Assembly (NCBI GenBank): GCA_016217935.1
Contig: JACRFJ010000014.1
Location: 1-35,768 of the forward strand
Direction of reading: 5' to 3'
Source: Candidatus Kaiserbacteria bacterium
GTDB lineage: Bacteria > Patescibacteriota > Minisyncoccia > Phycocordibacterales > UBA2100
Length of the DNA stretch: 35,768 nt
Shown here: positions 5,650-35,768 of the stretch, in pieces
Layout: each line of letters begins with the position of its first letter
How positions within the stretch are numbered: the stretch's first letter is position 1
Program-made: the position numbers and the translations under genes
Notes under the pieces: generated by a model
The model's database searches: none
Told to the model about the DNA's origin: nothing
What the model saw: the letters and a program-made list of their open reading frames with translations, nothing else

Positions 5650-6228
5650 GAAGAGCGACAAAGAAACCCGACACACTCGTAAAGTGTGTGCCGGGCGAAT
5701 CCGTCACACGCTTTTGGCGTGTGTCGGAAATCAAAGAATCAAAACGTTTCGATCAGGTTCTCCCTCAGACCTAAAAATCAGGGGAGGTCTTTCCTGATCG
5801 GAATGCAGGAAAATTGGTCCGCAGGTATGCGGACCGAGCAAAAGAAAAAGTCTCGTCTCTCTTGTAGGAGACGAGCAGAAAGCAGATTCGTCACATGCGC
5901 AGCGGTGCATATGTGATGGATCGAAATACGCGGTTCTCAGAATTCCTTACGGGAGTTCTGAGTAAGGGCGTGTGGTGGATGCCTAGACTGAAGAAGGCGA
6001 TGAAGGACGCGGCTTAGCTGCGATATGCTTCGGGGAGGTGCTCAGCAACCTTCGATCCGGAGATTTCCGAATGGGGAAACCCCATTGAGTAAACCTCAAT
6101 GACTTCTCACTTAAACGATGAGAAGAGCGTACCTCGGGAAGTGAAACATCTCAGTACCGAGAGGAAAAGAGAACAATAGTTACTCCCTTAGTAGCGGCGA
6201 GCGAAACGGGAAGAGCCCAAACTCAGCC

Positions 6229-6308
6229 TCAAAATTTGCATTCATGGATTCCCAAGGTCGGACCTTGGGGATTCTAAAGGTCCGACCTTGAATGAATTCA
6301 AATTTTGG
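6229..6308 (+). other. Expansion hairpin in 23S domain I
   Basis: caaaatttg...caaattttg outer arms; caaggtcggacctt/aaggtccgaccttg perfect inner inverted repeat; absent from remembered E. coli 23S. Confidence 0.6.
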
Positions 6309-6538
6309 GTATGGGGGTTATAAGGCTACGGCGATGCCCCAATTAATTTTGGATTGGCAGATGGAGTTACAAAATGCTTAGTTAGTGGAACGAGCTGGGA
6401 AGCTCGACCCCAGAGGGTAATAGTCCCGTACACGAAAACGAAGCATCTCTATGGCTGTAGTTCTTGAGTATCTCGAGACATGAATAGCTCGGGTGAATTT
6501 GCCAGGACTAACTGGTAAGGCTACATACTTCTTCAGAT

Positions 6539-6581
<43 letters not shown>

Positions 6582-6665
6582 GGTGAGGGGAGTGAAATAG
6601 AACTGAAACCACATGTCTACAAGGAGTCGAAGAGGTTCACCATTTTGGGTGGTATCTTTTTAGGT

Positions 6666-6947
6666 ATGTATTATGTGTATATTCTTCAAAGCACTACGAA
6701 GCCGAAAATGTATATCGGATACAGTGCCGACTTGAAGTCACGCATCGCTCGCCACAATGATGGGGGTGTGCAATCCACAAAATATTATCGACCCTGGAGT
6801 TTGTTGTATTACGAAGCATATTCGAGCGATGCGCTTGCGCACAGTCGAGAAAAAGCTTTGAAGAACAAAGGAAAAGGGTGGATAGAACTTAAGAAGCGGA
6901 TAGTGCCTAGAATGGTGAACCTCGACGGCGTGCCTATTGAAGAATGA
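6666..6947 (+). CDS. GIY-YIG nuclease-domain (UvrC N-terminal/YhbQ-like) protein inserted in a 23S helix
   Basis: MYYVYILQSTTKPKMYIGYSADLKSRIARHNDGG...KYYRPWSLLYYEAYSSDALAHSREKALKNKGKG; flanked by perfect 13-bp inverted repeat 6632-6644/6911-6923. Confidence 0.85.
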   Translation: MYYVYILQSTTKPKMYIGYSADLKSRIARHNDGGVQSTKYYRPWSLLYYEAYSSDALAHSREKALKNKGKGWIELKKRIVPRMVNLDGVPIEE

Positions 6948-7559
6948 GCCAACGAGTTGATGCATACGGCTTGGCTAAGCCCTATCGGGTGGAGCCGCAG
7001 CGAAAGCGAGTGTGAATAGCGCGTAAAGTCCTGAGAGCAATCGAAGGATTTGTCGTATGTATCAGACCCGAAGCCGGGTGAGCTACCCATGAGCAGGATG
7101 AACCACATAGAAATATGTGGGGAGGTCCGAACCCGTAGATTGTGCAACATCTTGGGATGACTTGTGGGTTGGAGTGAAAAGCTTATCGAACTCGGTAATA
7201 GCTGGTTTTCTCCGAAAGAGCTTTCGGGCTTGCGTCGCATGTTTCTGTAGGGGGTAGAGCACTGGAAGGTTCGGATAGGCCGCAAGGCCACTGAACCTAT
7301 CAAACTCCGAATACCTACAGCCAGAATGCGGCAGTTAGACGGTGGGGGCGAAGCTCCACTCGTCAAAAGGGAAACAGCCCAGACCGCCAGTTAAGGTCCC
7401 TAAATCCATACTAAGTGCAAGCAAGGAGGTGAAATTTCACAGACAGTGAGGATGTTGGCTTAGAAGCAGCCACCATTCAAAGAAAGCGTAACAGCTCACT
7501 CACTCAGAGATTTCGCGCCACAAATGATCGGGGCTAAGTATGGTACCGAAGCTGCGGAT

Positions 7560-7651
7560 CCTTCGATTCGACACTGCGTGTCTCACTCAGGACAAGTTCG
7601 CGAACTTCGCGAGCCTGCCCTGAGCGAGGTACTTGGTACCGAGTCGAAGGG
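7560..7651 (+). repeat. Palindromic TTCGACT...GCTCAGG element embedded in a 23S helix
   Basis: Related to the 163-188 and 4276-4310 elements; lies between conserved gaagctgcgg and ggtaggagaacgttcc. Confidence 0.6.
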
Positions 7652-8371
7652 TGGTAGGAGAACGTTCCGTTCGCGATGAAGCCAAAGAGGTGACTCATGG
7701 TGGAGCATACGGAAGTGAAAATGTTGGCACGAGTAACCGCAATGCGAGTGAGATTCTCGCACGCCGAAAGAACAAGGTTTCCTTCGCAATGGAGATCATC
7801 GAAGGGTTAGTCGGTCCTAACAGTATGGCGAATGCCGGACTGGATGGACATAGGGTTAATATTCCCTAACTTGTGTAGTGTGCGATGGAGGGACGGAGTG
7901 CTGTACCTCGGGCCCATTATTGGTTTTGGGTTCGGGCCGTGATTGTGTGCTGTAGGTAAATCCGCAGCATAATCGAGAGCGGCAGGGATATGTAGAGGCC
8001 TCGGCCAAAGCAGATTCGAGAGAGCGCGCTTCCAAGAAAAACTTCTAAGCTTCAACATTACTCAAACCGTACCGCAAACCGACACAGGTGTTCAGGGCGA
8101 GTAGCCCAAGGCGAACGAGTGAGAGATCCCCAAGGAACTCGGCAAAAAAGCGACCGTACGTTAGCAATAAGGTCCGCCACCGTAAGGTGGCCGCAGTTAA
8201 AATTTCCCAGGCGACTGTTTACCAAAAACACAGCTCCCTGCAAACTCGTAAGAGGAAGTATAGGGGGTGATGCCTGACCAATGCCGGAAGGTCAAGTATG
8301 GAGGGTACATGCATTTATGCATGTGCTGGACTATATAAGCCCCGGTCAATGTCGGCGATAACTATAATCGT

Positions 8372-9153
8372 GAACTCGCTACGCTCCGCAAGGAGTCAAG
8401 AGTAGGGCGATTGTAAAATTCGGCTATTTGCTGGAACATCCGAGTATCTAACAGTACCGTGAAGGTAACAATCTGTTAGTGCGGACAATCAGCAGGAAAG
8501 GCCAATACAGCGTGTGCTCACGCAATAACATTGCGCATGAATCACACAACTCAGGAACTACTCAAACAATTTCACGGAAAGCGAACACTGCTCAATTATT
8601 TTGTGGCGGGGTTCGTGGACGGGGAAGGAAGTTTTAGTGTAGCAATCCTCAAACATCCAAAGAAAGAAAACGAATGGATTATTAACCCGTGTTTTCAGGT
8701 GTATCAGCATCAAAAACACAGGGAGATTCTGGAAATTTGCCAAGAAGTGTTTGGCACCGGAAGCATTTACCGCAAGAGTGGTGTGCATCCGGTACTCAAC
8801 TTCAGCATCGACTCAACGAGAAATATAATCGAACGGGTAATACCGTTTTTCGATCGATATCCGCTCGTGACGAAACAAGAAGCTTACAGGATATTTCGGG
8901 AAATTGTTCTTGCGATGAAAAATCGCGAACATTTCACGAAAGAAGGATTCGTCCGTCTTGTACGACTTGCTTACTCCATGAATCAACAGGGTAAAGGGAG
9001 ACGGCGAACTCTTGAAGAGATCGTCGGCAAACTTCCACCCGACGCTGTATTGGAATCCTCAGAGACTTTACGCCGAACTCGCACTAAGTGAGCTGCGAGA
9101 TGATAAAGTCCAATCCTTATGGCGACATGAGGGGCTCCGATAAAATCGGAATG
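8372..9153 (+). other. Group I intron at 23S about L1923 (E. coli numbering)
   Basis: 5' exon ...ataatcgt pairs with guide gcgattgt (8407-8414) with U.G at the splice site; P7/R-like cagagacttta with S-like gataaagtcc; 3' exon cctaaggtagcg. Confidence 0.85.
8531..9091 (+). CDS. LAGLIDADG homing endonuclease (single motif) in the L1923 intron
   Basis: NYFVAGFVDGEGSFSVAI motif; ATG alternative at 8537; ORF sits in stem ccaatacagcg/cgctgtattgg. Confidence 0.9.
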   Translation: MRMNHTTQELLKQFHGKRTLLNYFVAGFVDGEGSFSVAILKHPKKENEWIINPCFQVYQHQKHREILEICQEVFGTGSIYRKSGVHPVLNFSIDSTRNIIERVIPFFDRYPLVTKQEAYRIFREIVLAMKNREHFTKEGFVRLVRLAYSMNQQGKGRRRTLEEIVGKLPPDAVLESSETLRRTRTK

Positions 9154-9181
9154 CCTAAGGTAGCGAAATTCCTTGTCTGGT

Positions 9182-9651
9182 AACTGGATTGCCAGCTTCG
9201 GGAGTGATCCCGATGAAAAATTCGGCTTATAACGGTGGAGTCTTAACCTGAGCGCTTCAGACGAGGCGCGTCGATGGAAAGATAATACCGTGGGAAGTTT
9301 GTGAACTTCAGTAGGTGAAATTGTTCATGTTCAACGAAGAGGAGAACGAGATGTACTACATCCTCATGGCATTGCCGATCGTGCTTTTGATCGGACTGGT
9401 CGTTTTGCTGAACAATTAAGACCAGCAAATCGATCTGCCGGGCAAGCTCCGTCGCGGAGACGAGGCTTGCCCCCTACTGAAGTTCACAAACCCCGTAACG
9501 ACTTAGCGCACACGCGCTAGAGTGTTTGCTTCGAGCAAACGCTAACACGCCGGCTCTCATTCAAAAGAATGAGATGAAGATATAGTCTAATGCCCGTAGA
9601 AATACGGGGAGAGTGTAGCAATCGCGCGATTGTTACGATCAAACTCAATTG
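9182..9651 (+). other. Group I intron at 23S about L1951
   Basis: Exon ctggt pairs with gccag with U.G at the splice site; S-like gaagatatagtct; exons join as ccttgtctggt|aagttcagacgcgcacgaatgg. Confidence 0.8.
9351..9419 (+). CDS. Candidate 22-aa transmembrane micropeptide encoded in an intron stem-loop
   Basis: gaagaggagaacgag-ATG; MYYILMALPIVLLIGLVVLLNN*; not in the ORF track because of length. Confidence 0.5.
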   Translation: MYYILMALPIVLLIGLVVLLNN

Positions 9652-9960
9652 AAGTTCAGACGCGCACGAATGGTATAACGACTTGGGAACTGTCTCGGGG
9701 ATTTGCTCGGTGAAAATACAAGGGCGGTGAAGATGCCGCCTTCCTGCAGCTAGACGAAAAGACCCCAGAAGCTTTACTGTAATTTGGTATTGGGATTACG
9801 GGTGCACTGCGTAGCGTAGGTGGGAGGATTTGAAGCGCTGTTTTCGGATGGCGTGGATCCGCCAATGCAACACCACCCTGTGTTTCTGTAATTTCTAACT
9901 CTCTCTGAGAAACAGAGAGAAGACAGTACCTGATGGACAGTTTCGGTGGGGCGCTGTCCT

Positions 9961-10950
9961 TGAGCGCCAAAGGCTGTTTATCCGCAGCTGGAAAACAAAT
10001 GGGGGACCCGATGCGGCAACGCACCGGTGCACATCCGACTATATGCTGGAACACCCGCGCATGTTTGAATACTCGCAAGAGTGAAAATTTCAAACCGATG
10101 CGGACAATCAGCAGGGAAGATTTGTGAACTTCAGCGAGGAGAGGAGCGCAAAAAATGTTAACGCGCTTGACTGCGGTCCGGAAGCTTATTGCTTACCGCT
10201 CTTCCTCTCGCTGAAGTTCACAAAAACCCTCAGAGACTACATGTCGGATCACCAGGTAAAATAGGTGAAAGATATAGTCCGATCTTATTGGCGACAATAA
10301 GTGTCGAAAGACAATCAACATGAACACAAAAGAAATTCGAGAACATAAGCTCGGGTTGAAGCTGACCGATCGCCAGCGTGCGATTATTGTCGGACTTCTT
10401 CTCGGAGATGGTCATCTCGAAACGCAAAACAACACCAGAACATATCGGCTTAAAGTCGAACATGGCTCTGCGCAGTCGGATTACGTACACTGGCTCTTCC
10501 AAGAGCTTCGTGAATGGATCCCCTCCGATAAGCCATATGTGAAGGTTCGTAAAGATGGCGTCCAAAACGTCGGATTTACAACATATTCACATGGGGTTTT
10601 GCGTTTCTATGGCCAACAGTTCTACGAAGGCAAGCGGAAGCGCATGCCTAAAATCATCGGAAAAATGATTGAGCCGATTAGTGTTGCGGTGTGGTTTATG
10701 GACGATGGTTCGCGCAAATCTGCACGACACCTTTGTTACATAATTCACACGCTCGGGTTTTCAAAGACGGACTTGGAGTTTGCCCAAAATGCGCTCCGAT
10801 CTCGATTTGGAATCCACACGATACAACATCGGCAAAAAGGAAAGTATTGGAGATTATATATTCCTTCAGACTCAGCGAGGCAATTCGAATCCTTGATCGA
10901 AGAATATATACGACCCATCGCTTCTCTGAAGCATAAGTTGGTAACAAATG
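9961..10950 (+). other. Group I intron at 23S about L2262
   Basis: Exon gtcct pairs with gggac with U.G; core elements cctcagagacta and aagatatagtcc; exons join as gcgctgtcct|cctaaaaagtaacggagg. Confidence 0.82.
10155..10214 (+). CDS. Candidate 19-aa basic micropeptide in the L2262 intron stem-loop
   Basis: gaggagaggagcgcaaaaa-ATG; MLTRLTAVRKLIAYRSSSR*. Confidence 0.25.
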   Translation: MLTRLTAVRKLIAYRSSSR

Positions 10951-10955
10951 CCTAA
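10320..10955 (+). CDS. LAGLIDADG homing endonuclease (two motifs) in the L2262 intron
   Basis: AIIVGLLLGDGHLE and SVAVWFMDDGSR motifs. Confidence 0.92.
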   Translation: MNTKEIREHKLGLKLTDRQRAIIVGLLLGDGHLETQNNTRTYRLKVEHGSAQSDYVHWLFQELREWIPSDKPYVKVRKDGVQNVGFTTYSHGVLRFYGQQFYEGKRKRMPKIIGKMIEPISVAVWFMDDGSRKSARHLCYIIHTLGFSKTDLEFAQNALRSRFGIHTIQHRQKGKYWRLYIPSDSARQFESLIEEYIRPIASLKHKLVTNA

Positions 10956-11224
10956 AAAGTAACGGAGGAGCCTATTATGGTCACCTAGGCGCGAATGGAA
11001 ACCGTGCCGATAGTGCATTGGCAAAAGGTGGCTTGACTGCGAGTCGTACATGACAAGCAGGCGCGAAAGCGGAGCAAAGTGAACCGACGATCTGCATTAG
11101 ATGCAATCGAAGATTAACGGATAAAAGTTACTCTGGGGATAACAGGCTGGTTTCGCCTAAGAGTCCAAATCGACGGCGAAGTTCGGCACCTCGATGTCGG
11201 CTCATCTCATCCCGGGGCTGGAGA

Positions 11225-11258
<34 letters not shown>

Positions 11259-11284
11259 AGGTACGTGAGCTGGGTTCAAACCGT

Positions 11285-11685
11285 TCAGCAACTCACGATG
11301 AGGTTAAACCTCATCGGTTGGGAGATTGAACGGTTTGAACCCCGAGGAAAAACGAACAATTAACGATTTCGTAAATCGTTATTTAGACATCATCACGGCG
11401 GCGATGCATAGCAATATGTATCGAGAAGCTGACTTATATCGGTAAAACCCGACGTGCAGTTTGCACGGGGCAATACCGAGGGAAGTTTGTGAACTTCATT
11501 GAGTGGATTTTGCTGTTTCCCCACTCAATGAAGTTCGCAAATGCCTGTAGAGACTGAATGTTAGCCATCCAGTAATGTAATGGATGAAGTTACAGTCCGA
11601 TCCTGCTAGTAATGGCAGTATGTCAAGGTGTCACCTTGACATTACCCTGGCGACTCAAAATGAGTCGCTCGTGGCTAACCTCATG
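11285..11685 (+). other. ORF-less group I intron at 23S about L2593
   Basis: Splits gggttcaaaccgt from cgtgagacagg; R-like tgtagagactgaa and S-like gaagttacagtcc. Confidence 0.78.
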
Positions 11686-12118
11686 CGTGAGACAGGTTGG
11701 TCTTAATCTGCTGTAGGCGTTGATTCTTGAGGAGATTCGTTTCTAGTACGAGAGGACCGAAATGAACGAACCTCTGGTCTGGGGGCTGTACCACCAGGTG
11801 CACCGCCCCGTAGCTATGTTCGGAATGGATAACCGCTGAAAGCATCTAAGCGGGAAACCAACTCCAAGATAAGGAATCGTTTGAGGGTCGTGGGAGATGA
11901 CCACGTTGATAGGCACCAGGTGGAAGCACAGCAATGTGTTGAGCCGAGGTGTACTAATACCCCGACAGAACTCTCGAAAGGAATTGTGGGAGTCGCGTTA
12001 CGCTTTCTACACATTCTTTGATTAATCTTTGTCGCTCTTCGTAGTCAACGAGAAGAGCTGTTTGAAAATTGTGTGTTGGTGGTTTGGCGATGGGGTGAGG
12101 CGCGAGTACGCGCAGCGC

Positions 12119-12188
12119 CGCAAGGCCGGAGCATCGACGGATGCGAGGCGGGGTCGCGCAAAATCGCTCCAGCGATTTATGTGTGACA
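12119..12188 (+). repeat. 70-bp structured repeat, copy 1
   Basis: cgcaaggccggag-[hairpin]-gaggcggggtcgcgcaaaatcgctccagcgatttatgtgtgaca. Confidence 0.9.
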
Positions 12189-12221
12189 CACCGTTCTTAC
12201 GTCCATGAATTTTGTTTTTTG

Positions 12222-12328
12222 TCCTGGTGATTCGTCGGAGGGGTCACACCCGTTCTCATTCCGAACACGGCAGTTAAGCCCTCTTGAGGCGATGGTAGTC
12301 GAAAGGCGAGAGTAGCTAGTCGCCAGGA
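12222..12328 (+). rRNA. 5S ribosomal RNA (inner copy)
   Basis: tcctggtga...cacacccgttctcattccgaacacggcagttaagccc...ggcgatggtagtcgaaaggcgagagtag...cgccagga; flanked by complementary ttttgttttttg/caaaaaacaaaa. Confidence 0.9.
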
Positions 12329-12465
12329 CAAAAAACAAAATTGCGCCTCTCACACCACCCGTCCTCATTCCGTCAACAGTCAACTTGGGCAGTTAAGCCC
12401 ATCTGCGCCGATGGTAGTCGAAAGGCGAGAGTAGGTCGCCGCCAACACACAGTTTTCAAACTCCA

Positions 12466-12592
12466 GCTGAGGTAGTCGAAAGGTGAGAAGCGAAGCTTCG
12501 CAAGGCCGGAGGCGCGTCGGCGCCGAGGCGGGGTCGCGCAAAATCGCTCCAGCGATTTATGCGTGACAGAGAGCTAGGCGCCAGAACAAAAT
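12466..12592 (+). pseudogene. Degenerate 5S 3'-end fragment interrupted by repeat copy 2
   Basis: gaggtagtcgaaaggtgaga and gagagctaggcgccagaacaaaat resemble the inner 5S 3' end and trailer. Confidence 0.4.
12499..12568 (+). repeat. 70-bp structured repeat, copy 2
   Basis: Near-identical to 12119-12188 apart from an internal covarying hairpin. Confidence 0.9.
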
Positions 12593-12636
12593 TTTTAACA
12601 CAATAGCTCAGTCCGCATATCTCGCTAAAAAGGGAA

Positions 12637-12661
12637 CCCCAGTAAAATCCGGGGCTTTTTT
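12637..12661 (+). terminator. Rho-independent terminator after the 23S/5S unit
   Basis: cccc-agtaaaatcc-gggg followed by cttttttt. Confidence 0.75.
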
Positions 12662-12682
12662 ATTGACGATGCGTCGTCACCC

Positions 12683-12988
12683 TTATCTTTCGAGCGTAAA
12701 GAGCAGGCCCGCGTCGCGCAATCTTGTAAACTGCGCGTTTGACGGAGCCTCCATCTCGCCGAACGCATTGCCACCAAGCGTTCGACAGTGCATGAGTCGT
12801 CCAACAGGGTTCCCGTCTGAGCGCGAGATGACGAGGAGATCATCTCCACTGAACAGAAGGCCAGTGTTGTCATTGATTCTCATAGCTCTGTCCCAGTTGA
12901 CGACAGTTCCCCGATTGCCGACAGATTGATAGTCGTGCGGGCGGCGGAACGATTGCAAAATGCGGAATACTTGAAGCGTACGGGGCAT
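12683..12988 (-). CDS. Hypothetical protein
   Basis: 101-aa ORF preceded by aggaggataaccg-ATG; no competing long ORF. Confidence 0.6.
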   Translation of the reverse strand: MPRTLQVFRILQSFRRPHDYQSVGNRGTVVNWDRAMRINDNTGLLFSGDDLLVISRSDGNPVGRLMHCRTLGGNAFGEMEAPSNAQFTRLRDAGLLFTLER

Positions 12989-33846: not shown

Positions 33847-34254
33847 GGTCCGACCATCGCTCCTGATGGTTTTTGCCTGATGTGCGCTAGCACTTGGGCC
33901 TTGGACCGGATCTGCCGGAAGGTAGCTCTTGGAGAGGTGGTTTGAACTTTGACATACAGAATACGCATTCGAATTCCGTAGCGGAGTTCGAATGTAACAA
34001 CCAATGCAAACATTGGTAAGTTTCGAATCAAAAGATTCGAAAGCAACACACACAAGTCGAGGACCTGAAAAGGTCCGAGATCCTGAGCACGCAGTTGCGT
34101 GCGAAGGGCAAGAAAAAATCGGCACGAAGTTCTAGGAGGATTTTGTGTCGTACAGTAAAGGAACTAGAATGTTCCACATTCTTTTGTTCCGTCCATCCTA
34201 AGAGAAAGAGTAAACCTCTTTATCGGTAATCTCGCCGCAAGGCGGATTATTTAT

Positions 34255-35768
<1,514 letters not shown>

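Follow-up and report, generated by a model that had tools for sequence, protein, structure and literature searches.

The 5S rRNA gene is counted among the most stable single-copy genes of the reduced genomes of ultra-small bacteria of the Candidatus Kaiserbacteria group. Expanded 5S rRNAs are known in the Halobacterales, Halanaerobiales, Clostridiales, Thermoanaerobacterales, and Alteromonadales, in which expansion segments of 13–109 nt are found in molecules that are regarded as one RNA (Stepanov and Fox 2021, PMC7812874). Insertions are also described in the 16S and 23S rRNA genes of CPR bacteria, while no insertion of at least 100 bp was seen in any of 645 CPR 5S genes (Tsurumaki et al. 2024, PMC11270868). 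Among eukaryotes, the Cassandra retrotransposons of plants carry 5S sequence in a moving element (PMC7215508, PMC10853983), and filamentous ascomycetes harbor truncated 5S relics next to functional genes (PMC5555474). We found no nested 5S genes in the open-access literature, and the words "Patescibacteria" and "nested" are absent from the text of PMC7812874.

Here, we describe a locus of a Candidatus Kaiserbacteria bacterium in which one 5S gene is interrupted by an insert that holds a complete second 5S gene. As in the expanded 5S rRNAs (PMC7812874), insertions lie within the 5S gene, many being able to form extended helices, and 5S relics with insertions occur next to normal copies; in contrast to these molecules, the insert is about 260 nt long and holds a complete second 5S. 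The locus shares its bacterial group with the insertions in CPR 16S and 23S genes (PMC11270868), and the 23S and 16S genes analyzed here carry group I introns themselves, whereas the 5S insert matches neither an intron nor a homing endonuclease. The search used in that survey (RF00001, E 1e-4) would call the intact inner copy only, which fits with its absence of 5S insertions. The Cassandra elements differ in being eukaryotic LTR retroelements, for which the abstracts of the two papers do not mention 5S-in-5S nesting with rescue, and the ascomycete pseudogenes belong to eukaryotic multigene families rather than to a single-copy bacterial operon gene.

A 5S rRNA gene nested within a second 5S rRNA gene

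The window, i.e., the whole stretch of 35,768 nt that was analyzed, corresponds to contig C45 of a 764-kb genome in 47 contigs (G000) and was compared with a collection of relatives, mostly Candidatus Kaiserbacteria and other Paceibacterota. A 23S rRNA gene with introns (5950–11976, Rfam LSU match) lies upstream of the 5S region in the same operon; it and all 5S features are on the plus strand unless indicated otherwise. The 23S gene spans about 6 kb and contains a group I intron (9968–10301), LAGLIDADG ORFs (8531–9091 and 10320–10955), and a GIY-YIG ORF (6645–6947), and the 16S gene (34252–35768) contains a group I intron as well (35038–35399). A simple pattern scan revealed no clear promoter or terminator in the nested 5S region, so that all 5S copies are presumably located on one transcript with the 23S rRNA.

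The intact inner 5S rRNA gene is located at 12223–12328. It matches RF00001 over the full model (1–120) with 71.3 bits, above the gathering cut-off of 38, and represents the only RF00001 match in the whole genome; one intact 5S is present per genome. A custom covariance model (R1), built from 41 relatives (Paceibacteria), gave 120.2 bits, and a 5S HMM built from relatives, with this genome left out, gave 114.4 bits. The inverted-repeat search detected a 5' arm (12208–12222) and a 3' arm (12328–12342) of a flanking stem, the segments 12208–12230 and 12320–12342 being 96% complementary over 23 nt. The Rfam check suggested by the first-pass annotation agrees with its claim of a complete second 5S inside the outer copy, and the complementary flanks that it ascribed to this copy are present as well. 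This inner copy is probably functional and would provide the 5S rRNA of the ribosome.

The outer 5S is divided into a 5' half comprising the 5' strands of helices I and II (12075–12095, from the HMM alignment of the joined halves) and a 3' half (12354–12447, start approximate, from R1 and the HMM). The halves are enclosed by the arms of a putative processing stem at 12060–12074 (inverted repeat with 12439–12461) and 12448–12468 (inverted repeat and duplex energy); the segments 12060–12082 and 12439–12461 are 91% complementary over 23 nt, and the duplex of the outer arms amounts to −20.1 kcal/mol with helix I removed. The first-pass annotation had proposed that 12071–12096 and 12354–12450 rebuild one 5S with helices I and II, and had named a poor 5S score of the joined halves as one result that would contradict it. 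In fact, the joined halves reached 81.8 bits (E 3e-27) with the relatives-only HMM, compared to 63.4 bits for the 3' half alone and −3.3 bits for the short 5' half alone. Both halves are thus present, although the mature-like 5' half ends at about 12095 and not at 12096. The strands of helix I and of helix II, which are split between the halves, pair with each other, and the halves derive from a single 5S gene.

The outer copy is nevertheless damaged, because an insertion of about 10–13 nt (around 12373–12385) disrupts helix III/loop C. It therefore lacks the intact helices I–V of a 5S rRNA, and owing to the insert of about 260 nt with its full 5S and to the lesion in loop C it is also distinct from an expanded 5S with an extended helix of 13–109 nt on an intact core. 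R1 recognized the 3' half at 12385–12447 (33.5 bits, E 5.7e-9), while the outer copy in place had no RF00001 match even at E ≤ 10 and did not reach the gathering cut-off; annotation with Rfam alone hides this copy. The 3' fragment keeps 50 of 52 near-invariant 5S positions, which makes the earlier suggestion of a recent interruption plausible but no more than that, because old-looking nested loci also keep the outer stem and some outer copies look homogenized with the inner one.

The insert is composite: from 5' to 3', a repeat and a leftover of the outer gene precede the inner 5S with its stem, behind which lies a trace of the repeat in inverted orientation. The repeat, which is dispersed and has three hairpins (GTGAG...GTGAC), is inserted in loop B of the outer 5S, where its first copy spans 12095–12187. 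It is followed by a 17-nt leftover of outer loop B and the 5' strand of helix III, acaccgttcttacgtcc (ACACCGTTCTTACGTCC), at 12188–12204, and this layout is also seen in G058 (ACACACCTGTTTTTATTCC) and L111. The trace, which like the leftover was read from the sequence, comprises 11 nt of the left end of the repeat on the minus strand (GCGCCTCTCAC, 12343–12353); in G058, the elements follow one another in the same way, and a full inverted repeat copy precedes the outer 3' half. The pairing of the insertion ends noted previously (gtgaggcgc/gcgcctctcac) is present, but these ends are the start of the repeat and its inverted trace. Since the loop B/helix III stretch of 12188–12204 occurs again at the start of the outer 3' half, it is present on either side of the inner copy, and the insertion was not a clean cut. 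An intron explanation was ruled out, as the insert matched no intron family and no group I or II intron was detected in 11950–12760 at E ≤ 10.

Downstream of the outer gene, a third 5S is represented by a fragment of its 3' region (helix IV/V, 12469–12482; direct repeat family D3, 94% over 18 nt) and, on direct reading, by a 3' end fragment (AGAGAGCTAGGCGCCAGAAC, 12568–12587). Between them lies the second copy of the dispersed repeat (12483–12567), which is 86% identical to the first.

Nested 5S genes in related genomes

An uninterrupted 5S gene of the outer type is present in the relative G024. The outer type of the window is identical to it at 79 of 81 compared positions, at a host distance of 1.61, and the 5' half at 20 of 21 (by eye). 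Reading both sequences, we found that helix II differs by a compensatory change from A-U to U-A (GGCGAAGGG/CCCTTC in G024, GGCGATGGG/CCCATC in the window) and that one C-G pair of the flanking stem is replaced by G-C, which is likewise compensatory. Such matched changes indicate that the outer halves belong to one gene. Relatives with an unrelated spacer and a decayed tandem 3' part had been named beforehand as another finding that would speak against nesting; instead, G024 is uninterrupted and other nested loci were found.

Scanning 119 loci with the 5S HMM, we detected a full 5S in 104, with extra 5S fragments beside many of them, these counts including loci that represent the same genome twice. 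Among 76 distinct full-5S loci, 24 have an upstream or downstream 5S fragment (uncorrected p ≤ 0.01). On reading the sequences, both halves were found to flank an intact copy in G000, G058, G006, G014, G016, L108, L113, L120, L130, L132, L140, and L159, and partial evidence of nesting was obtained for G015, L144, L109, and L111. Nested 5S genes thus recur in relatives. Loop B, loop C, and the strand after helix II are recurrent insertion sites, and in several loci the inserted unit can be read to end with a stem of its own. A 5S covariance-model survey of the whole order showed nearby second fragments in few genomes (G000, G036, G115, G182, G186, and G188); this low count probably reflects that short halves fall below the covariance-model filters, and the denser nesting count refers to loci read directly and not to this survey.

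The locus L159 (G115) is triply nested and contains several distinct palindromic insertions; one of these, CCCAGTAGC..GCTACGGGACAGG, is located at the junction where L132 and L108 carry a whole 5S cassette. Furthermore, in L136/L162, L160, L161, and L163, the 5S gene is expanded by long hairpins inserted at helix IV/V; these loci are from other Paceibacterota, outside the bacterial orders named in the abstract of PMC7812874.

An arrangement of this kind could also stem from a decayed tandem array of at least three 5S genes, in which only the middle copy survived whole while the first kept just its 5' half and the last just its 3' half, the nesting being illusory. In G000, the presence of loop B/helix III sequence on either side of the inner copy is consistent with such an array. 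One-sided or tandem 5S remnants were seen in G017, G064, G012, G062, G010, G063, L155, L157, and L158; those in G017, G064, G062, G010, and L155, together with L117, fit the array, and the former five argue against a cassette and imply that tandem duplication also operates. However, in 11 nested loci the outer arms, which were defined by eye as the segments adjoining helix I, leaving room for some selection, paired with each other at a mean of −14.6 kcal/mol with helix I removed, compared to −5.6 kcal/mol for mismatched loci and about −5.1 to −5.3 kcal/mol when outer arms were combined with inner arms within one locus (outer 5' arm with its own inner 3' arm, −5.1 kcal/mol). Against shuffles, pairing was weaker in L120 (p 0.03) and L130 (p 0.017). 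The compensatory changes common to the outer halves of G000, the uninterrupted gene in G024, and the junctions of G014 and G016, which on reading show no overlapping 5S sequence, also speak against an array, and we regard it as unlikely. The simpler notion that the 3' half in G000 is a lone decayed tandem copy was rejected on the basis of arm pairing and compensatory changes.

We consider it probable that the resident 5S, the last gene of the rRNA operon, received a stem-bounded functional 5S cassette and that the outer copy is a broken relic. In this course of events, the dispersed hairpin repeat would strike loop B of the resident 5S before or together with the cassette, the stem-bounded cassette would enter the resident gene, and the inner copy would take over the 5S supply of the ribosome. 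The outer copy would then be left as a relic, whose intact flanking stem may still be the processing stem of the precursor. The direction of the event, from inner into outer, is what we infer from this arrangement; the cassette would be of lateral origin, and a transposase-like mechanism might have been involved, although we linked no transposase or recombinase to the insertion event. Because pairing is kept in L130, L132, and L159, in which the outer body has decayed, the outer stem may still be used in processing; palindrome-correcting mutation would give the same pattern of retained stems.

The retained stems would also suit an outer 5S that still works, either as an expanded 5S or after excision of the inner unit and the repeat at the RNA level, with gene conversion keeping it intact; excision had been considered in the first-pass annotation, but no positive evidence for it was found. 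In line with a working outer 5S, outer fragments break 0–5 of up to 54 near-invariant positions, the 3' halves of outer and inner copies do not differ in L140 and hardly differ in L120, and nearby members of the phylum have expanded 5S genes (L136, L160–L163). Yet helix III/loop C is damaged in G000 and RF00001 is blind to the outer copy, an intact 5S is already provided by the inner copy, several outer copies have multiple extra insertions, and excision is at odds with an insert that matches no intron family. Palindrome-correcting mutation or gene conversion could moreover preserve stems and bodies without function. A working outer 5S therefore appears quite improbable to us.

The exact arrangement of G000 was found in a single metagenome assembly only, and 5S genes, being short and conserved, are classic sites of chimeric joins, here possibly between 5S genes of different strains. 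Nevertheless, many independent assemblies, produced in different projects, show nesting in varied forms, and the junctions are made up of stems and repeats that are unique, in place of shared 5S sequence, which makes misassembly a very remote explanation.

Distribution and history of the nested 5S genes

On a host tree of one protein, which is encoded next to the 5S locus and leaves many weak forks, the nested state is scattered and amounts to 12 changes by parsimony, a number that is approximate in that L109, L111, L144, and L110 were labeled as nested without a clear 3' half and in which gains and losses are not told apart. G058 is nested and its sister G024 is not. The inner 5S of G000 is identical to that of G066 at 105 of 106 positions at a host distance of 0.97, this being the only pair at a host distance above 0.7 with at least 104 identities. 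The inner and outer 5S of G000 thus have different nearest relatives, G066 and G024, respectively, and both hosts are distant. This suggests that 5S genes may have moved laterally, convergence in a slow gene being the alternative.

By eye, a junction motif (CCCCGCACCAAA...TTTGGTGCGGGG or close variants) is shared around the inner unit in G014, L120, L144, and L163, and a common hairpin precedes CATTCC in G016, L113, L120, and L140. Because such motifs are common to distant hosts, the scatter may understate the age of some nestings. Overall, 5S genes seem to have been replaced repeatedly by copies landing inside them. We tentatively raise the possibility, which we consider doubtful at present, that the 5S genes of Kaiserbacteria and relatives are stem-bounded, lineage-crossing cassettes that prefer a resident 5S, break it, and supply an intact copy, i.e., a self-rescuing mobile gene. 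If 5S genes are indeed replaced from within, this would be a new way in which rRNA genes turn over, it would offer a testable example of an essential gene that rescues itself, and the 5S gene would have to be treated with caution as a marker of vertical descent in this group.

A dispersed three-hairpin repeat

The repeat found in loop B is about 93 nt long, forms three hairpins, of which at least two covary, and is dispersed through the genus, with copies in L166–L197. Both full-length copies in the genome of the window are located at the 5S locus. Across aligned copies, the linkers GTGAG, GCAAGGCCGGAG, GAGGCGGGGTCGC, and GTGAC are conserved, 97.1% of the cells in the hairpins are paired, and 15 of 21 pairs are changed on both sides. 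The covariation score was 0.49, compared to 0.16 for shuffles and at most 0.08 for slid controls, for an alignment that was not fitted to the structure but from which the structure was predicted. The repeat had no Rfam match, and it is possibly a new structured repeat of Kaiserbacteria.

REP/RAYT systems consist of short tagged palindromes in many copies per genome, near a Y1 transposase gene, and differ from this repeat of about 93 nt with three hairpins and two full copies. We found 13 Y1_Tnp matches in this genome and Y1 transposases in 46 of 52 genomes of the genus; among the loci read, a Y1_Tnp gene adjoins the 5S locus in G062 only. Mobility of the repeat by a RAYT/REP mechanism is unsupported, as the repeat lies near a Y1_Tnp gene in G062 only (coordinates compared by eye).

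In L178 and L180, two repeat copies are located between partial duplications of protein-coding sequence (the start of a FPEGFLWG-type glycosidase and the TTIEEVLRVITE gene end), a layout that resembles the arrangement of a broken and an intact gene at the 5S locus. In L179 and L196, repeat copies are found directly 3' of apparent tRNA genes.
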